64,000 bases of DNA, from positions 1 through 64,000 of the forward strand of contig DATAOI010000036.1 of NCBI GenBank assembly GCA_036265815.1. The letters are read 5' to 3'. The stretch comes from Gemmatimonadales bacterium (GTDB taxonomy: Bacteria; Gemmatimonadota; Gemmatimonadetes; Gemmatimonadales; GWC2-71-9). The notes under the pieces were generated by a model. The model was not told the origin of the DNA and ran no database searches. It was given only the letters and a program-made list of their open reading frames with translations. Positions 26,499 through 42,660 of this stretch are shown here, in pieces (position 1 is the stretch's first letter; the number at the start of each line of letters is the position of its first letter). The translations under genes and the position numbers were made by a program.

Positions 26499-27902
26499 AT
26501 GAAAGCACTGGTCGTCGCTCCTCACCCCTTCTTTACCCCCCGCGGGACGCCTTTCAGCGTCTACTACCGCACGCTGGTCACCGCCGAGTTGGGTGTCGAG
26601 GTCGACCTGCTGACCTACTGGGAGGGGCAGGAGGTCGCCATTCCCGGCGTCCGGGTGATCCGGATCCCCTGGGTGCCGTTCACGGCCAAGGTGCCGGTTG
26701 GACCGTCGCTGAAAAAGCTGGTGCTGGACCTGATGATGTTCCTGTGGACGGTCGGCCTTCTGGTGCGGAGGCGGTACGACTTCGTGCACGCACACGAGGA
26801 GAGCGTCTTCTTCTGCAGCTGGCTCAAGCCGATCTTCGGCTTCAAGCTGGTGTACGACATGCACTCGAGCCTTCCGCAGCAGCTCAGCAACTTCGAGTTC
26901 ACCAAATCGCAGCTCCCCATCCGGGTGTTCGAGCGCCTGGAGAGAACCGCCCTGCACTCCGCCACCGCCATCGTCACGATCTGTCCCGATCTCGCCGAGC
27001 AGGTCGAGTCGCAACTAGCAGATACCTCCCATCATTTCCTGATCGAGAACTCGATCTTCGAGGACGTGAAGCTGGCGCCTGCCAGTCCGTCCAGCACGGA
27101 CGAAACGGAGATCATGCAGTCGGTGCCGCTGGCGCCTCTGGTGGTGTACAGCGGCACGTTCGAGGCATACCAGGGTCTCGATGTGCTGATCGAGGCCTTC
27201 GCCGAGGTCCACCGGCACCGCCCCGATGCGTCGCTGCTGCTGGTGGGTGGCACCCCGGTGCAGGTGGCCCGGTACCGGGCCCTGGCAGATTCCCACGGGC
27301 TGAACGGCGGGTGCCGGTTCACCGGCCGGGTGTCCCAGGCTACCGCGCGGTGCCTGTCTCAGCGGGCCACCGTACTCACCTCTCCGCGGATCAAGGGCAC
27401 CAACACGCCGCTCAAGATCTACGAGCAGCTCGCCAGCGGCATTCCCCTGGTGGCCACCCGGATCCACTCGCACACCCAGGTCCTGGACGACGATGTCTGC
27501 TTCCTGGTCGAGCCGACCGCTGCCGGTCTGGCCAGTGGTATTCTCCAGGCTATCACCGACCCGGACAAGCGAGAGACGGTGACCCGCGGCGCCCTGGAGC
27601 TGTATGACCGGCGGTACGCCCGGCCGGTGTACGAGCAGAAGATGCGCAACATGCTCGAGCTGCTGCGGGTCCGTCTCGCGGCGGATCGCAGGGCCGAGGG
27701 ACGCCTGGATGCCCTGGTCGACGGGATCAACGGCTATGCCTTCACGCTCGTGGTGCTCGCTCTCCTCACTCCGGTGGTGATGATCCGTCCGGTGCTCATG
27801 CTTCTCACCCGGGTGACCAACAGCACGGCGACCACGGTGAGAATTCGGCTGGCGCGGCGGCGGCTGGCCCCCCGGGTGGCCTCGACCGTCGCGGTGGACT
27901 GA
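26499..27902 (+). CDS. Glycosyltransferase, GT4-like, with C-terminal membrane tail
   Basis: 467 residues. The N-terminus VVAPHPFFTPRGTPFSVYYR and the later GTFEAYQGLDVLIEAF and NTPLKIYEQLASGIPLVAT blocks (nucleotide-sugar site) mark a GT-B fold enzyme of the GT4 type. It should transfer a sugar from a nucleotide sugar to a lipid or glycan acceptor at the inner face of the membrane. A hydrophobic patch lies near 80-95, and residues 403-439 form a membrane-type tail (NGYAFTLVVLALLTPVVMI). That tail is copied as the next tiny gene. It leads a plus-strand unit with the tiny gene and an asparagine synthetase. Confidence 0.88.
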   Translation: MKALVVAPHPFFTPRGTPFSVYYRTLVTAELGVEVDLLTYWEGQEVAIPGVRVIRIPWVPFTAKVPVGPSLKKLVLDLMMFLWTVGLLVRRRYDFVHAHEESVFFCSWLKPIFGFKLVYDMHSSLPQQLSNFEFTKSQLPIRVFERLERTALHSATAIVTICPDLAEQVESQLADTSHHFLIENSIFEDVKLAPASPSSTDETEIMQSVPLAPLVVYSGTFEAYQGLDVLIEAFAEVHRHRPDASLLLVGGTPVQVARYRALADSHGLNGGCRFTGRVSQATARCLSQRATVLTSPRIKGTNTPLKIYEQLASGIPLVATRIHSHTQVLDDDVCFLVEPTAAGLASGILQAITDPDKRETVTRGALELYDRRYARPVYEQKMRNMLELLRVRLAADRRAEGRLDALVDGINGYAFTLVVLALLTPVVMIRPVLMLLTRVTNSTATTVRIRLARRRLAPRVASTVAVD

Positions 27903-27911
27903 GGCCAAGTC

Positions 27912-28049
27912 ATGGATGACCTGATCGACGCGATCAACGGATATGTGTTTACCCTCCTAGCTCTTACCCTACTGGCACCGATGCTGCTGATTCACTCAGT
28001 GCGCATCCTCCTCACCAGGACTCCGTCGGAACACCTTGACCAATTCTGA
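27912..28049 (+). CDS. 45-residue membrane miniprotein, copy of the glycosyltransferase tail
   Basis: A 45-residue frame with GAGG seven bases before its ATG and nine bases after the glycosyltransferase stop. It has one hydrophobic stretch of about 20-25 residues. It aligns without gaps to residues 403-439 of the upstream protein: DxLxDxINGYxFTL, then LL-P, I, V and LLTR shared, about 20 of 37 identical by my count. Codons are more AT-rich than the neighbours (CTA, CTT, TTT). I know of no family for it; a role in anchoring or partnering the glycosyltransferase is inference. Confidence 0.7.
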   Translation: MDDLIDAINGYVFTLLALTLLAPMLLIHSVRILLTRTPSEHLDQF

Positions 28050-28091: not shown

Positions 28092-29978
28092 ATGTGCGGC
28101 ATTGCGGGCGTCGTGCCGCTCAATGGCGGCGCGGCGGCCGACGGCGTTCAACTGGCCGCGATGTGCTCCACCATCGTTCACCGGGGGCCGGACAGCGAAG
28201 GGTGCGACATCCGTGACGGGATCGCCCTCGGCATGCGGCGGCTCTCGGTCATCGACGTGTCCGGTGGCCGGCAGCCGATGTTCAACGAAGACCGCACGGT
28301 GCGACTGGTCTTCAACGGCGAGATCTACAACTTTCGTGAGCTCCGTGCCGAGCTGGTGGCGGCCGGCCACCGGTTCGCCACCGCAAGCGATACCGAGGTG
28401 CTGGTCCATCTCTGGGAAGAGCATGGATCGGGATTCGCCGCCCGGCTCAACGGCATGTTCGCCATCGCGCTGCACGATAGCCGCCGGCGCCGTTTCGTCC
28501 TGGTGCGCGATCATTTCGGGATCAAGCCGCTGTACTATGCCCTGACACGGCAGCACCTGGTCTTCGGGTCGGAGGTCAAGGCGGTCCTCGCCTCCGGGCT
28601 CACGGGACGAAGCCTCGACCTCGACGCGCTGGGCCAGTTCCTCGCCTGGGAATACGTCCCCGCGCCCGCGACGCTCCTCCAGGAAGTCCGCAAGCTCGGG
28701 CCGGCGGAGATGCTGGAGGTGGATCTCACCACCAGCCAGATCGCGCGGCATACCTGGTGGCGGCTGCCCGCCCCGGGAAACCCGCGCAATGGCGATCTGC
28801 CCCGCACCCCCGGCGAGTGGGAAGAGGCCATCGATGCCAAGGTCCACGAGTCGGTCCAGCGGCAGCTGGTCAGCGACGTGCCGCTGGGTGCCTTCCTGTC
28901 GGGCGGAGTCGACAGCTCTCTGGTGGTCGCGGCGATGGGGCCGGCCCACACCTACAGCATCGGCTTCGACGACCCCAGCTACAACGAGGTCGCCTGGTCC
29001 AAGCGGGTGGCTGAATCGCTCGGCGTCACCCATTCGGTCGAGGTGATCCGTCCGGACGTGGTGGGACTGTTCGAGCACCTGATGCCGTTCCTGGACGACC
29101 CCATCGGCGACTTCTCCATCTTTCCAACCTATCTGGTCTCCCGGCTCGCCCGGCGGGAGGTGACGGTGGTGCTGTCGGGCGATGGCGGCGACGAGATCTT
29201 CGGCGGCTACGATACCTATGCGGCCCAGGAGAAGGCGCGCGCCTGGCGCCGGATTCCCGGCTTTGTCCGCCAGGGGATGATGGAGCCGCTCATCGGCGCG
29301 CTCCGGCCGCGCCCGGCAAAGAAGGGGCTGGTCAACAAGGCGCGCCGTTTCGTCGAGGGACTGCAGAACGACGAGCGGCTGGGCCACGCCCGCTGGCGGC
29401 TCTTCGCCGGCTCGGCGCTCCGGCGCGAGCTGTTCGCCCCCGAGGCGCATGCCGCGCTGAGCACACCGGTCGAAGCCCACATCCTGGAGCTGGCCGGGGA
29501 GGTGGCCGGACGGTCGGAGGTGGACCGCGAGCTCTACATCGACCTCAAGAGTTACCTGAGCGACAATTGCCTGGTGAAGATCGACCGGATGGCGATGGCG
29601 TGCTCGCTGGAGGGCAGGGTCCCGCTGCTGGATCCCGAGCTGGTCGAGCTGGCCTTCCGGATGCCGGCCGAGCTCAAGGTGGGGCGCGAGGGCACCAAGA
29701 TCCTGCTCAAGCGGGTGGCGGCCCGCCATGTGCCGAAGGAGTGCGTCTACCGGCCCAAGGAAGGCTTCAGCATCCCGATCAAGAACTGGCTGGGAGGCGA
29801 GCTCCGTCCCCTGGTCGACGACCTGCTCTCCTCCGAGCGGCTCCGCCGCGAGGGCGTGTTCCGGGTGGAGACGATCGAGCGACTGCGGCGGGAACACGAT
29901 GCGGGCGTGGCGAACCACAGCCACGTGCTGTGGTCGCTGACGGTATTCGAGGACTGGCGCGCGAGGTGGGGGGTGTAG
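28092..29978 (+). CDS. asnB: Asparagine synthase (glutamine-hydrolysing)
   Basis: 628 residues with both domains. The class II glutaminase begins with the required Cys2 (MCGIAGVVPL) and has HRGPDSEG and FNGEIYNFREL. The synthetase domain has the ATP-pyrophosphatase loop FLSGGVDSSLVVAA, then LSGDGGDEIFGGYDTY and the KIDRMAMACSLEGRVPLLD block. It should make an amide from a carboxylate using glutamine and ATP. Members like this are common in exopolysaccharide loci, where they may amidate sugar acids instead of aspartate. It is third in the plus-strand unit and converges on the PaaK-like gene. Confidence 0.92.
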   Translation: MCGIAGVVPLNGGAAADGVQLAAMCSTIVHRGPDSEGCDIRDGIALGMRRLSVIDVSGGRQPMFNEDRTVRLVFNGEIYNFRELRAELVAAGHRFATASDTEVLVHLWEEHGSGFAARLNGMFAIALHDSRRRRFVLVRDHFGIKPLYYALTRQHLVFGSEVKAVLASGLTGRSLDLDALGQFLAWEYVPAPATLLQEVRKLGPAEMLEVDLTTSQIARHTWWRLPAPGNPRNGDLPRTPGEWEEAIDAKVHESVQRQLVSDVPLGAFLSGGVDSSLVVAAMGPAHTYSIGFDDPSYNEVAWSKRVAESLGVTHSVEVIRPDVVGLFEHLMPFLDDPIGDFSIFPTYLVSRLARREVTVVLSGDGGDEIFGGYDTYAAQEKARAWRRIPGFVRQGMMEPLIGALRPRPAKKGLVNKARRFVEGLQNDERLGHARWRLFAGSALRRELFAPEAHAALSTPVEAHILELAGEVAGRSEVDRELYIDLKSYLSDNCLVKIDRMAMACSLEGRVPLLDPELVELAFRMPAELKVGREGTKILLKRVAARHVPKECVYRPKEGFSIPIKNWLGGELRPLVDDLLSSERLRREGVFRVETIERLRREHDAGVANHSHVLWSLTVFEDWRARWGV

Positions 29979-29994: not shown

Positions 29995-31368
29995 TCACCC
30001 TCCCGCCGCCGCCATGTGCAGGCCCCAGCTCACCGGGATGTTCACCCGCGCCAGGTCCTCCGGTGAGAGCCGGTTGAAGCACTGACGGATCTTGCCGACC
30101 GGGTTCCGCTCCAGGTCCTCCAGCTGACAGAAGCGAAGATCGATCTGCATCCCCTCGCCGAGGCGGGCCCGGAGCGCGGCAAGCACGCTCTGGGTGTTCT
30201 CCGGCTCGCGGTACGCGGTCCCCTTGACGATCCGGACCTCGACCTTGCCAAGCTCGCGCTGGATGATCTGCGAATAGAGCAGATTGGGCAGCGGCCAGAG
30301 CGCCGCGGCGGCGAAGGTGCCGGAGATCAGCTTGCCATCCGCGGACACCAGGTAATCGGTCTGGCGTCCCTCGATCTTGGTGATCACCGGAAACGACTGC
30401 CCGCAGTCGCACCCCTCCAGCGACCAGCTCGCGATATCTCCGGTGCGATAGCGGATGAGCGGCATGGCCCGGTTGTGCATCGTGGTCACGGTGACGACCC
30501 CCGACACGCCTGGCGGCACCGGCTGGCCGTCCTCGCCCAGGATCTCGTGGAAGCCGTAATCCAGCTGCGCGTGCATCCGCCCCGACTTGCACTCCAGCAC
30601 CGAGGCGCAGCGCTCCCAGTGGGTGTAGTGGTTGTAGACCCGGGCGCCGAGCACGCTCTCGATCTCCTTGCGCTGGAAATCGTAGAGCGTCTCCGAGCCG
30701 GAGATGACCATCGGCACGTGGAGCTCGAGGCCGTTCTCCCGGAGCAGCCGGCTGAAGAGGAACATGGCCGACGGATACCCCCGCATGAAGCGCGGACGGT
30801 ACTTGAGAATCAGGTCCCGGAAGAGGCGCACGGTATCGGGGCCCACCCGGGCCGACGAAAGCTCCAGCGCCCGGATGGCGGGGCTGTACTTCCATCCGGC
30901 CTCGTAGAAGAGTCCCTTCATCACCGCGTGGCGCTGCCCCAGGTGGAAATAGCCGCCGCTGCCCCAGGCCCGCCAGAACAGGGCGAACGCCGCCGCGTTG
31001 ATGTTCTGGTCCAACCCGATCTTGAGCTGCATACCGGTGGAGCCCGACGTGGTGACCCACATGATCCGCTTGGGGTCGGCGGTGCGGGAGATCAGGTCGT
31101 CGGTATTGGCCCGGACGATCTCCTTTTCCATCAGCGGAATCCGGTTCCAGGTCTCCGGCCGCTTCAGGTCCTGGGAACGGATGCCGTGCTGGTCGAACGC
31201 GCGCCGGTAGTACGGCACGGTCTCGTAGGCGTGGGTCAGGATGTCCGCGCGCCGCGCGCGGGACCATTCCTCCAGCCGGTCGGCGCTCCAGTAGGGCGCC
31301 TCGGTGAAGAGCCGCCGGTACTTGAGCACCCCGAAGGGATAGAAGTAGTTCCGGAACTTAAATCGCAT
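29995..31368 (-). CDS. PaaK/CapK-like adenylate-forming ligase
   Basis: 457 residues related to phenylacetate-CoA ligase and the CapK proteins of polysaccharide loci. The phosphate-binding loop is VTTSGSTGMQLKI; ISGSETLYDFQRK and the RYRTGDIASW block (the Asp that binds ATP ribose) follow, and NPVGKIRQCF near the C-terminus carries the expected catalytic Lys. It should activate a carboxylic acid as an acyl-AMP, possibly on to CoA or an amine. It is the last gene of the six-gene minus-strand operon; its ATG lies 11 bases inside the upstream gene. Substrate unknown. Confidence 0.88.
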   Translation of the reverse strand: MRFKFRNYFYPFGVLKYRRLFTEAPYWSADRLEEWSRARRADILTHAYETVPYYRRAFDQHGIRSQDLKRPETWNRIPLMEKEIVRANTDDLISRTADPKRIMWVTTSGSTGMQLKIGLDQNINAAAFALFWRAWGSGGYFHLGQRHAVMKGLFYEAGWKYSPAIRALELSSARVGPDTVRLFRDLILKYRPRFMRGYPSAMFLFSRLLRENGLELHVPMVISGSETLYDFQRKEIESVLGARVYNHYTHWERCASVLECKSGRMHAQLDYGFHEILGEDGQPVPPGVSGVVTVTTMHNRAMPLIRYRTGDIASWSLEGCDCGQSFPVITKIEGRQTDYLVSADGKLISGTFAAAALWPLPNLLYSQIIQRELGKVEVRIVKGTAYREPENTQSVLAALRARLGEGMQIDLRFCQLEDLERNPVGKIRQCFNRLSPEDLARVNIPVSWGLHMAAAGG

Positions 31369-33256
31369 GGAATCGGGCCTGGAGTGGAGGTGCGCCCTTG
31401 AGTGAGCCCCGTCCCCGGAGCCAGAGCTGGAGCACGAAGACGGCCCAGAGCCGCTGGGAGTGATTGGCCCGCCGCTCACGATGTTCCCGGAGCATGCGGG
31501 CGATGGCCTCGGGCCGGAACAGACCCAGCTCCTCCAGCGCCTCCTGACCGCAGGCCTGGGTGAGATGCTCCGCGATGCGGCTCTCCTCGCGCAGCCAGTT
31601 CTTGAGCGGAATGGAGAGGCCGAGCTTGTCCTTCCGGTGGTTGATGACGTCCGGCAGCACGCCTTCCATGCCCTTCCGGAAGAGCCGCTTGGTGCGCTCG
31701 ATGCCCTCCAGCTTGAGCCGGCTGGGAACCCGGGCCCCGAAGTCGATCAGCTCGCGGTCGAGGAACGGCGAGCGCAGCTCCACCCCGAACGACCGCAGCA
31801 GCCGCGCGCGGTTGGCGAAGCTGGGCACCATGGTGGTGTAATCGTTGTAGATGCAGGGAGTGACCTGGTCGTCCGGCCCGTCATAGCCGTCGAAGCCGCG
31901 GCGGACGCACTCGAACGGGTCCGCTTCCCGCACCGCCGCCGCCACCTCCGGCGCCAGGAGCTCCGTGAGATCGCCGGGTGCGTAGTAGGCCTTCCAGCGG
32001 TAGTGCATGAGATCGCGGGAGAACGACTCCGGCGGCAGCAGACGCTTGAGGATCACCCGGAGGTCGCGCTTCCGGTCCGAGTCGGGGAGTGACCCGGCGA
32101 AGCGGATCAGCGCCCGGTTGACCAGCCTCGGCACCGGCAGCTTCTCGTACAGCCCGACGATCCGCTGGGCCGCGTAGACCGGATGGCTGGCCCAGACCTC
32201 GTCTCCGCCGGTGCCGGTGAGCACGTAGTCCACCTGCCCGCCCGCGGCCCGGGCGAGCAGCCAGGTGGCGACCTCGAGCCCCAGATCGCAGAACGGCAGC
32301 TCCATGGCGGAGACGACCTGGTCGATCTCCAGTGCGTCGTCGGGGCCGAAGAGCACCTCGGTGTGCTCGCTGCCGGCCGCAGCCGACATCGCGCGGGCGT
32401 ACACCGATTCGTCGAACGAGGCCGAGGCGCAGCGATACGAATAGGTGCGGATGGCGCCCGGCTGATGGCGGCGGAGCAGCGTCAGCACCGAGCTCGAATC
32501 CATTCCGCCCGAGAGGAACACCCCGGGCCGGAGATTCCCGGCGCGGCGCAGCACCGTGGCTTCCAGCAAAGTGCGGAACTGGTCCGCGATCGCCTGCTCG
32601 TCCGTGAGGTACGGTCCCGCGAATGAGACCCGATACCAGCGCCTCGTCTCCACGACGCCGCGCCCGGGCTCCACCACGAGCAAACCGCCGGCCGGCACCT
32701 GACGGACGTCCCGGTCGAGCGTCGCATCGCTGGGGATGTAGCAGTAGGTGAGATACTCCGCGAGGCCGCGGGGGCAGATACCGCCCGGCAGCGCTCCGGT
32801 GCCGTGCAGGTCGCGTACGCGGGAGCCGAACACCAGGTTGGGCCCCGACTGCGCGTAGTAGAGCCCCTCAGCTCCGATCCGGTCCCGAATGAGATGGAGC
32901 CGCTGCACCCGGCCGTCGTACCAGGCGATGGCGAACGAGCCGTCCAGCTGGTCCAGCGCCGGGATCCCCCGCTCGGTCAGCCGGGTCAACAGGAAGCCGG
33001 CAAGGCTCCTCGGCCGTCCCGACGGGGTTCCGGCCGTGTCGTGGAAGATGTGCCCCGATACGGCGAGCCATGAGCCGGTCGCCGAATCGACGGCCCAGCG
33101 CTGCTCCGCGTCCAACGCCGGCACCGCCCAGGGCCGGACGGCCGCCACGGCTTCCTCGCCGCCGACCCAGGAGACCTCGTCTTCCGCTTCGCCCCGCCAG
33201 CCCGCCAGGAGCCCGAACCGGTCCCGCGCAATGGATCCTGCCGCACCCAGAAGCAA
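31358..33256 (-). CDS. Asparagine synthetase-like protein lacking the glutaminase cysteine
   Basis: 632 residues with asparagine-synthetase layout, but the N-terminus reads MLLGAAGS and has no Cys2, so glutamine hydrolysis is not expected. The start is secure: TTG 33256 has GGAGG five bases upstream, and an in-frame stop lies only six codons before it. The ATP-pyrophosphatase loop FLSGGMDSSSVL is intact, as are LTGTGGDEVWASHP and the FRKGMEGVLPD segment. It should adenylate a carboxylate and let ammonia or an amine attack, as in beta-lactam synthetase and lasso cyclase, which also lost the Cys. It sits between epimerase and PaaK-like genes. Confidence 0.88.
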   Translation of the reverse strand: MLLGAAGSIARDRFGLLAGWRGEAEDEVSWVGGEEAVAAVRPWAVPALDAEQRWAVDSATGSWLAVSGHIFHDTAGTPSGRPRSLAGFLLTRLTERGIPALDQLDGSFAIAWYDGRVQRLHLIRDRIGAEGLYYAQSGPNLVFGSRVRDLHGTGALPGGICPRGLAEYLTYCYIPSDATLDRDVRQVPAGGLLVVEPGRGVVETRRWYRVSFAGPYLTDEQAIADQFRTLLEATVLRRAGNLRPGVFLSGGMDSSSVLTLLRRHQPGAIRTYSYRCASASFDESVYARAMSAAAGSEHTEVLFGPDDALEIDQVVSAMELPFCDLGLEVATWLLARAAGGQVDYVLTGTGGDEVWASHPVYAAQRIVGLYEKLPVPRLVNRALIRFAGSLPDSDRKRDLRVILKRLLPPESFSRDLMHYRWKAYYAPGDLTELLAPEVAAAVREADPFECVRRGFDGYDGPDDQVTPCIYNDYTTMVPSFANRARLLRSFGVELRSPFLDRELIDFGARVPSRLKLEGIERTKRLFRKGMEGVLPDVINHRKDKLGLSIPLKNWLREESRIAEHLTQACGQEALEELGLFRPEAIARMLREHRERRANHSQRLWAVFVLQLWLRGRGSLKGAPPLQARFHAI

Positions 33257-33271
33257 GCGGTCCTCCGAGAA

Positions 33272-34255
33272 TCAGTGACCGGTACTGTGGCGGCCCTGCT
33301 GCATGGCCGCCCAGACCCGTTGGAAGCCCTCTCCGATCCCGACGGTAGGCGCGAAGCCGAAGTCGCGCCGCGCTCGGGCGGTGAGGAAGGCGTTCCGATT
33401 GGTGAAGAACGCAAGGGTGCGTCGGGAGATCGGGGGTGCTACGCCGACGATCCGGCCAGCAAGTTCCGCACCTAGGCCGGCGGCATACCCCACCGCCAGG
33501 GGCACCCGGATCCTGGCCCTGCCGCCCGTGACCTTCTCGGCCGCCGCGATGAGCTCCCGGGAGGTGAGATAGGCCGGCCCGGCCAGGATATAGGTGCGTC
33601 CGAAAGTCTCGGGCTTGAGCAGGATCCTCTCGACCCCGGCGACGTAGTCGTCGATGTAGATGGGATGCCGGTGGTTCCTCCCTCCGCCGAACATGATGAA
33701 GCGCCCGCGGGACACGGCACTGAGGATCCGCTCGGTCCGCGGGTCGCCCGGGCCGTAGACCCAGGCCGGCCGCACGATGGTGACCCCCATGGAGCCGGCA
33801 TCCGCCAGGAAACCGCGCACCTCCACCTCTCCGGCCGCCTTGGTCTGCTCGTAGACGCTCTCGGGGGCGAGCGGGGCGTCCTCGTCTCCAGGCACGCTGG
33901 CCAGCGATCCGTGCACCCCGACGCTGCTGGTATGCACGAAGTGCTTGACTCCCGCATCGCGCGAGGCTTCGAGCAGGGGGCGGAGACTCTTGACGTTGGT
34001 CTCCCAGTACACACTTTCGGGCAGGTCTACCTGGAGGTGGGCGCTGGCCAGGTGGATGACGACGTCGGCACCGGCCAGCGCCGGGCGCCACTGCTCGGGC
34101 ACCCTGATGTCGGCGGTGGCAACGGTCACCCCGGCCGGCGGCTGGTCCGCCAGCGGCGTCAGGTCCATCGCTACCACGTCCCAGCCACGCTGGCTCAGGT
34201 GCACCACCTGCGACCGGCCGATGAACCCCCGCGCCCCGGTGACGAGGACCTTCAT
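33272..34255 (-). CDS. NAD-dependent epimerase/dehydratase (extended SDR)
   Basis: 327 residues of the extended short-chain dehydrogenase family. NAD-binding GARGFIG at 7-13, the HTSSVGVHG segment and the catalytic Tyr135-x3-Lys139 pair (YEQTK) are present, then RPAWVYGPGD. It probably modifies a nucleotide-linked sugar; 3-beta-hydroxysteroid dehydrogenase-type members also look like this, so the substrate is open. It lies 10 bases after the methyltransferase and 15 bases before the TTG of the asparagine-synthetase-like gene, in the same reading frame as the latter. Confidence 0.88.
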   Translation of the reverse strand: MKVLVTGARGFIGRSQVVHLSQRGWDVVAMDLTPLADQPPAGVTVATADIRVPEQWRPALAGADVVIHLASAHLQVDLPESVYWETNVKSLRPLLEASRDAGVKHFVHTSSVGVHGSLASVPGDEDAPLAPESVYEQTKAAGEVEVRGFLADAGSMGVTIVRPAWVYGPGDPRTERILSAVSRGRFIMFGGGRNHRHPIYIDDYVAGVERILLKPETFGRTYILAGPAYLTSRELIAAAEKVTGGRARIRVPLAVGYAAGLGAELAGRIVGVAPPISRRTLAFFTNRNAFLTARARRDFGFAPTVGIGEGFQRVWAAMQQGRHSTGH

Positions 34256-34265
34256 CGCCGCCGAC

Positions 34266-35105
34266 TCACTGCTTGGGCTTGCTGCCGACCACGGCCACGG
34301 CGTACCCGGTCGTGAACGGCGCCATCAACACGTCGAGCGACGAGACCGCGCGGCAGACCGGATAGATCAGGCTGTAGAGCTTGAGGGTCTTCTCGACTTT
34401 GCGCACCTGGTCGCCCGACGAGGGGGCGATGGGCCCATGCTCGGTGTTGCCCGCCGGCTGCTTGCGCCGGCTCAGCAGTTTGACGTAGGCGAGGTTGATC
34501 CCCAGCTCGATCATCTCGGTGGGAAACTGGGAGTAGCTGCCCGTGGCGCCTGCCCGGAACCCGGCCGACGCGAGCATCTGCCTCAGCTCGTCGATGGTAT
34601 ACCCTACCCGCACATGCCCATAGGTGTCCTTGGTCATACCGACCCGATCCTTGATCCGGACCGCCAGCTTGCCCAGGTCGCCATTGGGCGTGGTGATGAT
34701 GGCGCGGCCACCCGGCCGCACGATGCGGAACAGCTCGCGGTTGAGCGGCGCCGTCTCGGTGAGATGCTCGTGCACGTCGATCACGATGACGGCGTCGAAG
34801 CTCGCGTCGGGGAAGTCGAGCCGCTCGGGCGTGCAGTGCACCACCGGCTCGCCCAGGAACCTCCGCATCTCCGGAATCGCTGCCGCCTCGCATTCCCCCC
34901 AGCTCCAGCGGCCGCCGGACCGGCGCAGGACATAGTTCATGGCGCCGTTGTTGTCACCGTTGGTGAGCAGCAGCAGCCGGTTGCCCGGGTCCACCGGCCC
35001 CAGCAGGCGCCTCAGCAGCGCCAGTTTCTGCTTCTTCTTCAGGGTCTTGTCGAACAGGCGGAGCTGCCAGGGGCGCTCGCGCTCCGGGGAAGTCGGGCTC
35101 TGCAT
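34266..35105 (-). CDS. Class I SAM-dependent methyltransferase
   Basis: 279 residues. The SAM fold is weakly marked at motif I (LLLLTNGDNNGAMNYVL), with the stronger acidic and post motifs FDAVIVIDVHEHL and LFRIVRPGGRAIITTPNG. The sugar- or lipid-intermediate methylation suggested by the locus is inference. A helical C-terminal part (about 200-279) contains a hydrophobic stretch that may associate with membrane. ATG 35105 has GAGGAA about ten bases upstream. It starts 16 bases after the GlpD-like gene. Confidence 0.82.
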   Translation of the reverse strand: MQSPTSPERERPWQLRLFDKTLKKKQKLALLRRLLGPVDPGNRLLLLTNGDNNGAMNYVLRRSGGRWSWGECEAAAIPEMRRFLGEPVVHCTPERLDFPDASFDAVIVIDVHEHLTETAPLNRELFRIVRPGGRAIITTPNGDLGKLAVRIKDRVGMTKDTYGHVRVGYTIDELRQMLASAGFRAGATGSYSQFPTEMIELGINLAYVKLLSRRKQPAGNTEHGPIAPSSGDQVRKVEKTLKLYSLIYPVCRAVSSLDVLMAPFTTGYAVAVVGSKPKQ

Positions 35106-35121
35106 CAGGCGCAATTTCCTC

Positions 35122-36798
35122 TCAGCTCGAAGTGATGGCCAACCCCTGCCGAAGCATGGCTTCGGTCCGTGCGATCTCGCTCTCCCGGCGCTCCGGGCTC
35201 CATTCCAGCACCGAGCCCATCAGCTCGGCGCAGCGCCGCAATGCTTCGGGGCCGGGGTAGCCGCCGGCAGACAGCTCGGTCCGGCGAAGCACGACGTCAT
35301 CCAGCCGCTGCGCCATCTCCCGCTCGACCCCGAACACGATTTCGGCGCCGATCACCGGCGAGCCCGCCACCAGCTCGGCGCCCAGCGACGGGTCCGCGCG
35401 AACGTAGCCGAACAGCTCCCCGGCGATCGAGCCGTAGTTCTGCCGCAGGTGGTGCATGACGACGGTACTCACGCCCGCCGGCGCGGTCTCGCGGGCCGTG
35501 CCGTCCAGCTCCTCGATGTCGCCGCCGGGCAGCGGTCGCTCGGCTGGACGGCGGGGCGATTCGCCGGGACGGAGCCGACGCTCCACCAGGTCCACGGCCT
35601 CCTCGGCCGTGAGGCGCGCGGTGGTCCACTTGACGCCGACCGCGGAGAACAGGCTCACGGCTCCCTCGCCCGCGTGATCGTAGACCCGCGAGTGCTTCAC
35701 CAGCTGGACCTCGTGCGGGCCGGCTCGCGGCACTTCGGGCAGGAGCCCGCCCAGCACGGCGAGCACGTCCTTTCGGGACAGCGCCGCGCTGGGACACGCG
35801 GCGTTGATCTCGCCGAGGAAGACCTCGATGTCGTCCTCGGTGATCCGGAAATCGTCCGGATCGCCCTGATAGAGCAGGTGTCGGGTGCCGATCAGGGAAA
35901 ATTGCTTCCATGGCACCACGAAGAACAGGCGGGTGCCCTTGTTGAGCACGGCGTCGCTGTCGCGGAACTCGGTCGGGACGGTGAAACCGATGGCGTGGTC
36001 GCCGAAGAGCCGGCGGGTGACCAGGTTCATCCCTTTCGAGGGATGGAACCGCCTCACAGTGCGAGCGCCCGGGAGCGCTTGCAGCAGCCGGTCGGCCCAC
36101 GGTCCCGCGGCGTTCAGGACCGTCCGCGCTCGGATCTCGAAGACATCGCCGCCTAGACGGTCACGTGCCCGCACTCCCTGCACCCGGCCGTCCCGGAGGA
36201 GGAGTCCGGTGGCCTCGACGTAGTTGGCGCAGACGGCGCCATGGTCCACCGCGGAGCGCAAGTACGCCAGCGCGAGCCGCTCGGTATTGGCGATCTGACA
36301 GTCGTACCAGATCGCGCCGCCGGTGAGCCCGCGCGCATCGAGATCCGGCACCATCGCACGGACTTCCTCTCGTCCGATCACCCGGCCGGGCGGGATCCGG
36401 CGATCCTCTCTCACGCCCGCGCTGCGGTCGAATCCGACCAGGTCGTTCAGCAGGAGCGCGGTGCGCATCACGGCCTTGCTGCCGAGACCATGGCCATGGG
36501 TCGGGATCACGAACGGGAGCGGCCGCACCAGGTGGGGCGCGGTGCGCAAAAGCATGGCGCGCTCGCGGATCGACTCGCGCATCCGGCGGAGGTCGCCATG
36601 CTGGAGATAACGAAGCCCGCCGTGGACGGTCTTGAGACTGTTGGACGAGGTCGCCGAGACGAAATCCCCCCGCTCCACCAGGCAGACCGCGAGTCCGCGG
36701 CGAGCGGCTTCGTGCGCGGCGCAAATACCGTAGATGCCGCCGCCGACCACGGCCAGATCGAACTCCGAGCGGGCGAGAGCGGCAGGATCCCTGATCAC
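35122..36798 (-). CDS. glpD: FAD-dependent glycerol-3-phosphate dehydrogenase-like protein
   Basis: 558 residues. The FAD-binding start LAVVGGGIYGICAAHEAARR, SLKTVHGGLRYLQHGDL, the DCQIANTERL segment and the C-terminal helical domain match GlpD/GlpA. It would oxidise sn-glycerol 3-phosphate to dihydroxyacetone phosphate and pass electrons to quinone at the membrane. GTG 36798 overlaps the upstream stop (GTGA); the frame extends further upstream, but that part is an overlap shadow. Its position inside a glycoconjugate operon is odd for a catabolic enzyme, so a modified glycerol-phosphate substrate is conceivable. Confidence 0.87.
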   Translation of the reverse strand: MIRDPAALARSEFDLAVVGGGIYGICAAHEAARRGLAVCLVERGDFVSATSSNSLKTVHGGLRYLQHGDLRRMRESIRERAMLLRTAPHLVRPLPFVIPTHGHGLGSKAVMRTALLLNDLVGFDRSAGVREDRRIPPGRVIGREEVRAMVPDLDARGLTGGAIWYDCQIANTERLALAYLRSAVDHGAVCANYVEATGLLLRDGRVQGVRARDRLGGDVFEIRARTVLNAAGPWADRLLQALPGARTVRRFHPSKGMNLVTRRLFGDHAIGFTVPTEFRDSDAVLNKGTRLFFVVPWKQFSLIGTRHLLYQGDPDDFRITEDDIEVFLGEINAACPSAALSRKDVLAVLGGLLPEVPRAGPHEVQLVKHSRVYDHAGEGAVSLFSAVGVKWTTARLTAEEAVDLVERRLRPGESPRRPAERPLPGGDIEELDGTARETAPAGVSTVVMHHLRQNYGSIAGELFGYVRADPSLGAELVAGSPVIGAEIVFGVEREMAQRLDDVVLRRTELSAGGYPGPEALRRCAELMGSVLEWSPERRESEIARTEAMLRQGLAITSS

Positions 36799-37640
36799 GC
36801 CCGCGACCGCCGGCGCTTCCGCCGCTGCATGGCTATCTGGTTCCGGACGAAGGGTCCCAGCCGCTCGAGCCGCCCGAATGGCATCAGCCGCGAAGCCGAG
36901 TCGCGGAGCGCCGCCTTGATCCCTTCGGCGGGGGAAGTGAGATCGACGGCGCCGTCGAGGCGGAATCCGAAGCTTCCGGCCCGGCCGGTCTGGCGGGGGA
37001 AGGGCAGCGGGTCGGTCCCCGGGAGCACCCGAATGCCCTGCTGCTCCGCCTGCTGGAAGTGGCGGGGCTTGGTCCAGAAGAAGGGCCGGCCGGCGCCGTC
37101 GCCGAGGAAGAAGCCGTCGCCCGGGCGGGCCCCGGCAGTCAGCTCGGTCAGCAGCTTTCCGCGCCCGAACAGCCACTTCCCGGCGCCCCAGGGGATCACC
37201 CGGAGCGCGCCCAGCCGTGCCCCTTCCGCCAGGACGTCCTCGATCGGCCAGCCATCGGGAACGAGCGACCTGGTACCCAGCAACAGTACCTCCAGGCCTT
37301 CGCGCGCGACCACCTGGCGACCCGCTACGAGCAGGAGGCGACGGCCGCCGCTGGCGACCGCGAGGGCGGCCGGGTCGGGCGAGGACTCGATGCTCCAGGT
37401 GGTGGGGCGAGGGCGGTCCGCCCCTGGCGAGCCGGCGGCCATCCCGGCCAGCCGCCCGAACCAGTCGGCGCCTTCGGATTCGGTCAGCATCAACACGCAC
37501 TGTCCCGGCTCCCAGCCGTGCTCCCGCGCCGCCTGCTCGAAGTTGCGGTGAGCCCGCTCGAAGAAGGCGTCGAGCGGGAAGCAGTCGTGCAGGTGGACGT
37601 GGGCGTCGATCAGAAGAGCGGGCTGCTTGGGTTCAGTCAC
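36795..37640 (-). CDS. Metal-dependent hydrolase-like protein (PHP/amidohydrolase-like)
   Basis: 281 residues with a GTG start. The N-terminal IDAHVHLHDCF is a metal-binding His cluster like those of TIM-barrel amidohydrolases and PHP proteins. Later acidic or His-containing blocks (FFLGDGAGRP, VLPGTDPLPFP) could complete a site, but I cannot assign ligands. The C-terminus is very basic (RRKRRRSRA). It is first in the six-gene minus-strand operon and overlaps glpD by four bases. I do not recognise a named family. Confidence 0.68.
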   Translation of the reverse strand: MTEPKQPALLIDAHVHLHDCFPLDAFFERAHRNFEQAAREHGWEPGQCVLMLTESEGADWFGRLAGMAAGSPGADRPRPTTWSIESSPDPAALAVASGGRRLLLVAGRQVVAREGLEVLLLGTRSLVPDGWPIEDVLAEGARLGALRVIPWGAGKWLFGRGKLLTELTAGARPGDGFFLGDGAGRPFFWTKPRHFQQAEQQGIRVLPGTDPLPFPRQTGRAGSFGFRLDGAVDLTSPAEGIKAALRDSASRLMPFGRLERLGPFVRNQIAMQRRKRRRSRA

Positions 37641-39505: not shown

Positions 39506-41104
39506 TCAGGGTCCGGTGCCGTCCAGAATCCGACAATTCTCCTCGCTGCGGCCGGGAGGCAACAGGTCTTCTGGCCACGTGCCCCAGAGAGACCAGTGAT
39601 TGCATCCATCCGTCCAGCTCTGGGGATCGGCCCCGGGAACGATGGGGCCTTTGAGCGTCGTCGCGTAGAAGTGACCGGCCTCGTCCCGGTACGTGAGCCG
39701 GGCCGTTGCCTCCCCTCCACTGGAGCGAAGCCCCTCCGTGTAAGAATAGGGCCAGACCGCCGCAACATAGTGCCCGAACCGCTCGGGAAAGAGCGGAACA
39801 TCCTTGCCCGGGGGAACGCTCAGGAACCGTGCGGTGAGATTCCACCAGGAGTTCCCATAGGTGAGGCCTGGAATCGTGAGCATCTGGAAGCCGACGATCT
39901 CGAGCCCGCTCTCTCCCGGGGCATCCGCGACGACGAGCTGGGGGGCATAGTTCCAAAAGGCCGAACCCAACGGGTTCTCGAACTCGATGACCGTGAAGGA
40001 GCGCACGACGATGCGCGGCTGGGAATCCGGGGCGGCAAACGTCAGTGTCAGGGGCGCCGACGTTCCGCTGTTTCCGGACTCGTCGGCTACCGTCATTCGG
40101 ACGGTGTAGGTGCCGGGGTGGGGCTGCCGCAGCAAGTGAAAGTTGGAAGCCGAGGGGAGGATGTACCTCATGTCGAGATACCCCGCTGAGCCCCAGTTCG
40201 ACCGCCCGAAGCGCACCCGGAGTGGCGCATCGCCGCTTCGGTCATCGAACTCCCACTCGATATCGGCGATCTCGCGATCCTCCGTGATGGCTGCCCGGAA
40301 ACTGGGGTACTCGAAGGCTTCGGAGTCGCCGGCCACCGGCCTCAGGATGGTCACCAGGGGCGCCGTGACGTCCGGCGGCAGCGTGTCGGTGGTGAACCTG
40401 CTCGTCAGGAGCGCGCCGAGTGCCTGGCCATCGCGATCCCGGGCCGCGGTGCCGACCTGCAGCACGTAGGTCGTGCCCACTGCGAGCGGATCTGCCGGGA
40501 CAAAGGTGACCTGGAGGATGTCCCCCGTGTTGGCCGGAATCACCACAGTGCCGGGCACCGGGCTGCCACCGTCGGTCAGGGTCACCGCGTCGATCAGGCT
40601 GGCACTGTCCATCGGCTCGCTGAAGACCACGGTGATCGCCGGATTGAGCGACACGTCTCGCTTGTTGCTGGGCGGGTTGGTCCGCACCACGCTAGGTGAG
40701 ACGTTCAGATTGACGAGGATGCGGTATGATGACGAGAGGGCGGTCTCGCTGCGGACCAGGACACCCAGGGTATCGCCCGCGGCCGCAGTCACCCCGACCG
40801 GATCGAAGCCGCCATCCACCACGGGGACGGTGACGCCACTGCTGGTGCGCGGATCGGCGATGGTCGCCGCGGTGGCCCCGGGGATCTTCCCGGGCGACAG
40901 GGAGACGTAGACCAGGGACGTCCCGGCGGTCGCCGACGTGGACGAGAGCCTCGCGCGGGAGGCCGACATGGCAGGGCCCGGCACCGGATTCGACACCACG
41001 AACGGCGTCGGCGGAAGCAAACCTCCGGAATCTCGGGGCCCCGCTCCGTCCGAGCAGCCGAGGGTCATGCCAGCCAGCGCAATTGCCACGACGACCCGCA
41101 TCAT
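39506..41104 (-). CDS. Lipoprotein with bacterial Ig-like (Big_5) domain, paralogue 2
   Basis: 532 residues. A lipoprotein signal peptide ends at the lipobox TLGC near residue 17-18, followed by a Pro-rich spacer. The region around NPPSNKRDVSLNPAITVVFS through FTTDTLPPD is a Big_5/SbsA Ig-like domain; a second Ig-like stretch (about 255-355) and a C-terminal domain with Trp and Cys follow. It shares its full layout with the gene upstream, most strongly in the first 250 residues. ATG 41104 overlaps the neighbour's stop (ATGA). It is likely anchored on the outer surface; the ligand is unknown. Confidence 0.85.
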   Translation of the reverse strand: MMRVVVAIALAGMTLGCSDGAGPRDSGGLLPPTPFVVSNPVPGPAMSASRARLSSTSATAGTSLVYVSLSPGKIPGATAATIADPRTSSGVTVPVVDGGFDPVGVTAAAGDTLGVLVRSETALSSSYRILVNLNVSPSVVRTNPPSNKRDVSLNPAITVVFSEPMDSASLIDAVTLTDGGSPVPGTVVIPANTGDILQVTFVPADPLAVGTTYVLQVGTAARDRDGQALGALLTSRFTTDTLPPDVTAPLVTILRPVAGDSEAFEYPSFRAAITEDREIADIEWEFDDRSGDAPLRVRFGRSNWGSAGYLDMRYILPSASNFHLLRQPHPGTYTVRMTVADESGNSGTSAPLTLTFAAPDSQPRIVVRSFTVIEFENPLGSAFWNYAPQLVVADAPGESGLEIVGFQMLTIPGLTYGNSWWNLTARFLSVPPGKDVPLFPERFGHYVAAVWPYSYTEGLRSSGGEATARLTYRDEAGHFYATTLKGPIVPGADPQSWTDGCNHWSLWGTWPEDLLPPGRSEENCRILDGTGP

Positions 41105-42660
41105 CGGGAATCCTCGCTCCAGCCGCAGCCCGACAGGTCGCCTGGCTCCATGCCTTCCCATGACCAGTGATAGGCGCAGGCGCCCGTGAACGTCGTAGGC
41201 CAGTCTCCCGGCACGACGTCGCCCTTGACCGTCATCGTGTAGAAGTGACCGATCTCATCACGGTACGTGAGACGGGCAGTCGCTTCGCCTCCGCTCGAGC
41301 GACCCCCGGTGCCGAATGCTGGTTCGGGTTCGCCGTACCAGTCCTTGGGAAAGAGCGGGGTATCCTGGCCCGGCGGAACGCTCAGGAGGAAGGCGGTGAG
41401 TTTCCAGGGCGTGGACCAGGATGGTCGGGTCAATCCGGGAATCGTGAGCATCTCGAAGCCGACGATCCTGAGTCCGCTCTGCCCCGGAGCATCCGCGACG
41501 ACGAGCTGCGGGGTGTAGATCCACCCGGCCCAATTCGGATCATAGAACTCCACGACCGAGAACGAGCGCACCACGAGCCGCGGCTGTGAATCCGGAGCCA
41601 CAAACGTCATTGTGAATGGTGCCGACGATCCGATGTTCCCCGCGAAGTCCATCGCCGTCAATCGAACGTTGTAGATACCGGGGTGAAGCGACAAGTTGTT
41701 GTCGCTGTGGTCCGCAAGGACGTACCAATTGTCGAGGTGGTCAGACCAGTCGTTCGACCCCGAGTTCCACCCATAGGTGGGATTGCCGCTTCCGTCATCG
41801 AGCTCCCAGGTGACATCGACGATCTTGCGATCGTCATCGATCACTGCCCGGAAGGCAGGGTAATCGACAGCTTCCGAATCGATCCCTACCGGAGGGACAA
41901 TTCTGACCAGGGGCGCGGTGACATCCGGCGCCAGCGAATCGGTGGTAAACTCGGCGGTCACCGGCGCAGTGAGCCCCTGCCCATCCCGATCTTGAGCCGT
42001 GGTCCCGACCTGGAGCACGTAGGTGGTGAGTGGGGCCAGCGGGGCCGCCGGGATGAGGGTGACCTGCAGGATGTCGCCGCCGTTCGGCGGAATCACCACG
42101 GCTCCCGGCACCGGGTTGAGACCATCGGTCAAACTCAGTGCCCCGATCACACTCGCGCTGTCCATCGGTTCGCTGAAGACCACCGTGATCGCCGGATTGA
42201 GCGACACGTCGCGCTTGTTGTTTGGCGGGTTGGTCCGCACCACAGTGGGTGAGACGTTCAGGTTGACCAGAATCCGGTACGTTGCCGAGAGGGCAGGCCC
42301 GCTGTGGATCAGAACGTCCAGGGTATCCCCGGCGGCCGCGGTCACCCCGACTGGATCGAAGCCGCCGCTCACCACCGGGACGGTCGCGCCGCTGTTGATC
42401 CGGGGATTGACGATGGTCGCGAGACTGGCCCCAGGAATCTTCCCGGGTGCGAGGGAGACGTAGGCCAGGGATGTCCCGGCGGTCGCCGAGGTGGACGCCG
42501 AGAGTCTCGCGCCCGAGGCCGACACGGCAGGGCCCGGCACTGGATTCGACACCACGAACGGCGTCGGCGGCAGCGGCGTACCGCTGTCGGAGAGTCCCTC
42601 GCCCTCAGAGCAGGCGAGGGTCAGGCCGGCTAGTGCAGTGCCCAGGACGACGAATCTCAT
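41101..42660 (-). CDS. Lipoprotein with bacterial Ig-like (Big_5) domain, paralogue 1
   Basis: 519 residues. Lipobox LTLAC at about 13-17; then PPTPFVVSNPVPGPAVSAS, the Big_5-type domain with NPPNNKRDVSLNPAITVVFS, a variable second half and a common C-terminal motif RSSGGEATARLTYRDEIGHF. The next gene is a clear tandem copy. The ATG overlaps the stop of the beta-helix lipoprotein (ATGA). The second-half divergence between the copies suggests different ligands. No enzymatic motif is visible. Confidence 0.85.
   Translation of the reverse strand: MRFVVLGTALAGLTLACSEGEGLSDSGTPLPPTPFVVSNPVPGPAVSASGARLSASTSATAGTSLAYVSLAPGKIPGASLATIVNPRINSGATVPVVSGGFDPVGVTAAAGDTLDVLIHSGPALSATYRILVNLNVSPTVVRTNPPNNKRDVSLNPAITVVFSEPMDSASVIGALSLTDGLNPVPGAVVIPPNGGDILQVTLIPAAPLAPLTTYVLQVGTTAQDRDGQGLTAPVTAEFTTDSLAPDVTAPLVRIVPPVGIDSEAVDYPAFRAVIDDDRKIVDVTWELDDGSGNPTYGWNSGSNDWSDHLDNWYVLADHSDNNLSLHPGIYNVRLTAMDFAGNIGSSAPFTMTFVAPDSQPRLVVRSFSVVEFYDPNWAGWIYTPQLVVADAPGQSGLRIVGFEMLTIPGLTRPSWSTPWKLTAFLLSVPPGQDTPLFPKDWYGEPEPAFGTGGRSSGGEATARLTYRDEIGHFYTMTVKGDVVPGDWPTTFTGACAYHWSWEGMEPGDLSGCGWSEDSR

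Follow-up and report, generated by a model that had tools for sequence, protein, structure and literature searches.

A cysteine-less asparagine-synthetase homologue in a polysaccharide-type gene cluster of a Gemmatimonadales bacterium

The window analysed here is a stretch of 64,000 nucleotides (contig DATAOI010000036.1, assembly GCA_036265815.1) from a Gemmatimonadales bacterium. It carries two asparagine-synthetase homologues that lie 1.4 kb apart. AsnB1 (28092..29978, plus strand) starts with MCGIAG and scores 458 bits against TIGR01536, the family of glutamine-hydrolysing AsnB proteins, whose cut-off is 267.1; it was already described in an earlier note on this DNA as a nearby copy that keeps Cys2, the glutaminase cysteine, and this is indeed the case. 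AsnB2 (31358..33256, minus strand), an open reading frame of 632 aa, belongs to the Asn_synthase family of Pfam (PF00733, 217.1 bits against a gathering cut-off of 21) and has no Cys2. The loss is real, and it is rare in what was sampled. It is proposed, with an even chance of being correct, that AsnB2 serves a surface-polysaccharide pathway as an active, ATP-dependent amide synthetase, which has abandoned glutamine as its nitrogen donor.

The gene opens with a TTG at 33256-33254 on the minus strand, preceded by a GGAGG ribosome-binding-type site (33262..33266, minus strand) with a 5-nt spacer. The preceding gene, of the SDR type, lies in the same frame as AsnB2 and ends in a TGA (33272..33274, minus strand) six codons upstream; therefore, no in-frame start exists in between. 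The earlier note had considered the start to be fixed by the TTG, the GGAGG and a close upstream stop, which was confirmed, the stop being the TGA of the SDR gene. The codon-position GC of AsnB2 (0.72/0.49/0.89) is like that of AsnB1 (0.71/0.45/0.89), and thus it looks like a real gene. Its N-terminus reads MLLGAAG (residues 1-7) as against MCGIAG in AsnB1, and Leu3 (33248..33250, minus strand) is aligned with Cys2 of AsnB1. Furthermore, R50, N75, E77 and D100 (AsnB1 numbering), residues that bind glutamine in AsnB enzymes, are replaced by Pro, Ser, His and Leu in the alignment to AsnB1. The in-frame TGA and the disappearance of these other glutaminase residues rule out a start-site artefact as the cause, so that Cys2 is truly absent, as had been claimed. 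No Cys lies close by to substitute for Cys2.

The synthetase half is kept much better. The ATP loop, LSGGMDSS (residues 248-255; 32492..32515, minus strand), is intact, in line with the first description of the gene; both SGGMDSS (249-255) and GGDE (350-353) are unchanged, and Arg495 and Lys544 are retained in the aligned synthetase domain. In LTGTGGDE (346-353; 32198..32221, minus strand), Thr349 aligns with Glu348 of E. coli AsnB (1ct9). Other motifs of this domain are altered: GGY has become ASH, DRMAMA has become RARLLRS, and DDP has become ELP. Of the two glutaminase (GATase) models of Pfam, only the C-terminal part finds a match in AsnB2.

At E<=1e-30, AsnB2 reached 78 distinct homologues in 61 related genomes. 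Contig edges truncate five of them; Cys2 is present in 72 of the 73 uncut ones (L011 being scored as Cys-containing after realignment), and AsnB2 is the sole exception. The source genome itself has five full-length Asn_synthase genes, two of which, AsnB2 and a paralogue on contig C64, miss Cys2. The genes that accompany this paralogue (L005/L049; G000:C64:5639-6700) in its locus include a glycosyltransferase and an SDR gene. Its GGDE region reads GFDG (AGFGFDGL), and it looks catalytically decayed.

When the contigs of about 85,000 species were scanned with profile A1, the top match among the matches listed was a gene on a 5.2-kb contig of an uncultured Desulfobulbaceae (L103), with 331 bits; the next had 244. 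The L103 protein, 37% identical to AsnB2 in the synthetase domain, is also without Cys2 (MISGFF) and has SG instead of NG. An ATGA overlap with the GlpD-like gene before it fixes its start, and the GlpD-like gene is itself preceded by an SDR gene. The phylogeny of the synthetase domain that the earlier note had called for places AsnB2 with this Cys-less protein; the pair obtained a Shimodaira-Hasegawa-like approximate likelihood ratio (SH-aLRT) value of 99 in a quick tree of 99 rows restricted to that domain, and 100 in a 52-row tree (every second Cys-containing row, L003 left out) from which two marked columns had been removed. The nearest other relatives of AsnB2 are AsnB-type proteins with Cys2. 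Judged from their sequences, AsnB2 and L103 are a divergent branch, with two members, within a known family of enzymes.

No further member of this type was found among 395 genomes of the same phylum, where mostly three candidates per genome were scored. Similarly, in the phylum of L103 (297 genomes), profile A2 gave nine matches at E<=1e-98, eight of them with Cys2 and the ninth L103 itself. A single-protein scan of genome contigs returned no relative, and a plasmid search only four distant matches of 27-30% identity. As the patterns of the later contig scan, the one that gave L103, favour genes with Cys2 (GGDEx[FW][AG]GY, for example), the Cys-less relatives are probably under-counted. In the titles and abstract openings of mostly open-licence PMC papers, no report of a Cys-less AsnB in polysaccharide loci was seen.

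The two halves of these proteins have worn unevenly. In AsnB2, 20 of the 49 conserved N-domain columns are kept as against 41 of 57 in the C-domain (Fisher p 0.0016), and in L103 25 of 49 as against 45 of 57 (p 0.0038); the columns are those in which at least 85% of 95 Cys-containing homologues agree, and the N-domain alignment is weak, part of the counted losses possibly being misalignment.

Two positions of the synthetase domain are linked with the absence of Cys2. They were followed in 194 distinct homologues, comprising 184 with the Cys, five cut at edges, one scored by its Cys motif (L248) and four without Cys2 (AsnB2, L103, L194 and L005). The first is the Tyr of DExFxGY (Tyr373 in AsnB1), which is kept in 188 of the 194; it is His358 in AsnB2 (32183..32185, minus strand), and His occurs in AsnB2 and L103 alone. 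The second is the Met of DRxSMA (Met502 in AsnB1), kept in 183; it is Arg488 in AsnB2 (31793..31795, minus strand), and Arg is confined to AsnB2, L103 and L194. L194 is the same gene as in L256, from Marinobacterium rhizophilum, where the exosortase locus around it also contains an acyl carrier protein, hydr1/hydr2, FemAB, XrtA and ligase_PEP_1. In another Cys-less protein, L258/L287, the two sites are Asn and Glu, and in the C64 paralogue they are Gln and Ser. Both sites are, therefore, changed in all five Cys-less proteins seen, the C64 copy included. Of the proteins with Cys2, one, L243, carries Asn at the Tyr site. Thr349 was considered as a hallmark and rejected; Thr occurs there in five of the 194 homologues, including L024 and L026, both with Cys2.

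Whether the Cys-less proteins share one origin was approached through the trees. A group of AsnB2, L103, L194 and L287 is not rejected by the approximately unbiased test (p-AU 0.67), its likelihood being slightly above that of the free quick tree; parsimony on the unconstrained 52-row tree gives three changes of the Cys trait. The four may form one clade, but the group was named post hoc and involves long branches, and the test result is no proof of common descent. The exosortase-locus proteins resemble AsnB2 in having no Cys2 and changed Tyr373 and Met502 sites, and differ in their XrtA-type setting. It is suggested only tentatively, and considered unlikely, that the Cys-less AsnB homologues of glycan and exosortase loci are one unrecognised subfamily, marked by the replaced Tyr and Met, of glycan (or glycan-linker) amide ligases that take an amine other than ammonia, rather than amidotransferases.

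The two exosortase-type genes (L256:6085-7830 and L287:7627-9465) both lie near ligase_PEP_1, and one has an acyl carrier protein of 82 aa as its neighbour. The idea of a fixed pairing between ligase_PEP_1 and Cys-less AsnB was discarded, since only two of 22 ligase_PEP_1 loci (20 of 28 further matches, plus L256 and L287) have one.

Such divergence could also be a sign of decay. AsnB2 would then be a pseudoenzyme, decayed or regulatory, with its fold kept, perhaps to act together with AsnB1 or with the CapK-like protein encoded next to it. The altered GGY, DRMAMA and DDP motifs agree with this, as does the presence of the more decayed Cys-less C64 paralogue in the same genome. It is nevertheless quite unlikely, as the ATP loop, GGDE, Arg495 and Lys544 are retained, the reading frame is full-length with normal codon use, and a Cys-less relative in another phylum has the same specific substitutions.

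An AlphaFold model of AsnB2, built with an alignment of 65 sequences (A3: 63 of 75 references, AsnB2 and AsnB1), keeps both domains, with a predicted local distance difference test score (pLDDT) of 88.4 and a predicted template modelling score (pTM) of 0.91. Its best PDB match by VIA is TsnB9 (7ylz; Z 32.1, root-mean-square deviation (rmsd) 3.0, 537 residues aligned), which is also on top by Foldseek. By fold, beta-lactam synthetase (1m1z; Z 27.9, rmsd 3.0, 438 aligned) and E. coli AsnB (1ct9; Z 27.9, rmsd 3.2, 449 aligned) tie, and carbapenam synthetase reaches Z 26.4.

Beta-lactam and carbapenam synthetases retain a Cys-less N-domain beside a working synthetase and use a catalytic Tyr-Glu dyad. 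Lasso cyclases are AsnB-derived, amide-forming cyclases without Cys2, which are encoded alongside a precursor peptide, a leader peptidase and a leader-binding protein. The earlier note had likened AsnB2 to beta-lactam synthetase and lasso cyclase, with a different amine attacking. The part on altered amine chemistry stands as a lead, in view of the Cys-less sister and the two shared site changes. The kinship is not supported, for sequence scores favour AsnB (40 bits; TsnB9 70) over beta-lactam synthetase (26.5), and the lasso cyclase family NF033535 is far off (114.9 bits, cut-off 525), as is the macrolactam cyclase (63.9, cut-off 300). Thr349 lies at what we take to be the catalytic-Tyr site of the beta-lactam and carbapenam synthetases, a correspondence that was mapped from match ranges and covers the Tyr half of the dyad only. 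AsnB2 may thus work like these enzymes, while membership of their group is not supported. Intramolecular or peptide amide formation of their kind, which the lost Cys2, the retained ATP chemistry and the tied fold scores would allow, is very improbable given the sequence scores and the polysaccharide-type neighbourhood. No peptide-cluster genes were recognised among the scanned neighbours, a result that involved no precursor-peptide search. A search for lasso cyclases in 150 genomes of the phylum gave no match, yet its controls were silent too, and so it says nothing on absence.

AsnB2 shares with the TIGR01536 AsnB proteins the two-domain architecture, the ATP loop (SGGxDSS) and GGDE, but it lacks Cys2 and the glutamine-binding residues, and scores 190.2 bits, below the cut-off. 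The top NCBIfam family for both AsnB2 (220.8 bits) and L103 (307.3) is TIGR03108, the XrtA/PEP-CTERM (EPS) amidotransferases of polysaccharide loci, which include WbpS and WbqG. The cut-off of 816.9 is missed, and whereas AsnB1 matches the profile from residue 1, AsnB2 does so only from profile position 110. The exosortase model TIGR02602 found no match in the source genome (99% complete), a weak test in which one of 14 controls matched, below the cut-off. An excerpt of PMC7468200 credits WbpS (eps_aminotran_1) with uronamide formation on gene-deletion evidence.

The genes around AsnB2 form a cluster that looks set up, from its gene content, to build a surface sugar polymer. A minus-strand run begins with the gene of a 281-aa protein (36795..37640) that no Pfam or NCBIfam model matches and that has homologues in two other of 101 genomes. 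A GlpD-like FAD oxidoreductase (35122..36798; PF01266, 162.9 bits), a methyltransferase (34266..35114; PF08241, 41.5 bits) and the SDR/epimerase-type gene next upstream of AsnB2 (33272..34255; PF01370, 126.7 bits) follow. After AsnB2 comes a CapK/PaaK-like AMP-forming ligase of 457 aa (29995..31368; NCBIfam scores below cut-offs, no Pfam match), whose ATG at 31368 lies in an 11-nt overlap with AsnB2. On the plus strand are a GT4 glycosyltransferase (26499..27902; PF13692, 74.9 bits) and AsnB1; a sugar-transfer ATP-grasp gene lies beyond. The glycosyltransferase, the ATP-grasp and the epimerase give AsnB2 its polysaccharide setting.

Homologues of the SDR (150.7 bits) and GlpD-like (272.4 bits) genes adjoin the L103 gene as well. 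L044, L106 and L173 again combine homologues of GlpD, SDR, GT4 and AsnB, and L111, L118 and L182 do so in part; AsnB has Cys2 in all six. AsnB1, which in the view of the earlier note may act in order with AsnB2, has its own conserved neighbourhood, as in L044. The AsnB slot of this module is thus filled by the glutamine-using type in six loci, by the Cys-less type in L103 and by both in the window. The CapK-like gene was tried as a constant partner and dropped: none lies beside the L103 gene, and where AsnB occurs close to another CapK homologue, in 6 of 20 contexts, it always has Cys2. As for the 281-aa protein, it has DAHVHLHDCF near its start and homologues in L041, L042 and L106, those of L042 (= L044) and L106 being in polysaccharide-type clusters.

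If AsnB2 is an active amide synthetase, its C-terminal domain would bind MgATP via SGGMDSS and adenylate a carboxylate, most likely that of a sugar acid or of an acyl group carried by a glycan building block. The acyl-adenylate would then be attacked by an amine that is not ammonia from glutamine, with the N-terminal glutaminase fold staying as a scaffold. The adjacent CapK-like ligase may prepare the substrate; the L103 gene has no such neighbour. A polysaccharide carboxylate is a reasonable candidate for the acid because the nearest named family, TIGR03108, includes the uronamide-forming WbpS (PMC7468200, excerpt). That AsnB2 is active, which carboxylate and amine it would use and whether it cooperates with the ligase are all predictions from sequence.

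With the glutaminase dead, the amine would be either free ammonia or another amine. In the former case, the product of AsnB2 would be a primary amide (a uronamide, for instance), and the ammonia would be free or come from AsnB1 or another amidotransferase. The kinship to the uronamide-forming WbpS family and the Cys-containing AsnB1 so close by speak for such ammonia-only amidation. So does PesC, which an excerpt of PMC13060819 presents as a glutamine-using asparagine-synthetase-like enzyme, together with the ability of such enzymes to use ammonia in place of glutamine. Ammonia-only amidation is possible though not probable, for a mere loss of glutaminase would leave unexplained why changes are shared at Tyr373 and Met502, sites that nearly all Cys-containing homologues keep. 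Another amine is favoured because the changes reach these two near-invariant synthetase positions in all the Cys-less proteins seen.

Several points weigh against an active, glutamine-independent synthetase. Besides the weak N-domain alignment, Thr349 stands where Asp or Glu is common (Glu348 of E. coli AsnB), and the altered GGY and DRxSMA motifs could also mean lost activity. The clade consists of only two genes with 37% identity. The SDR-GlpD module goes with a Cys-containing AsnB in L106, L173 and L182, so the presence of these neighbours does not require the Cys-less type, and the CapK contexts described above point the same way.

An active AsnB2 would provide polysaccharide biosynthesis with an amide synthetase independent of glutamine, and the AsnB enzymes that work with other amines would gain a glycan branch. 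The Tyr373 and Met502 pair offers a mark, open to testing, by which such enzymes could be picked out from the many AsnB genes with no more than a name-based annotation. The Cys-less copies of the exosortase loci may be relevant to the question of the partner to which exosortases attach proteins.

Two further observations were made by eye. A 45-aa open reading frame at 27912-28049 resembles the C-terminal membrane segment of the preceding GT4 protein (INGYxFTLxxLxLLxPxxxI) and is perhaps a partial duplication. Two adjacent genes (39506-41161 and 41101-42660) encode similar proteins, which start like lipoproteins and have stretches in common, and are apparently the outcome of a tandem duplication.

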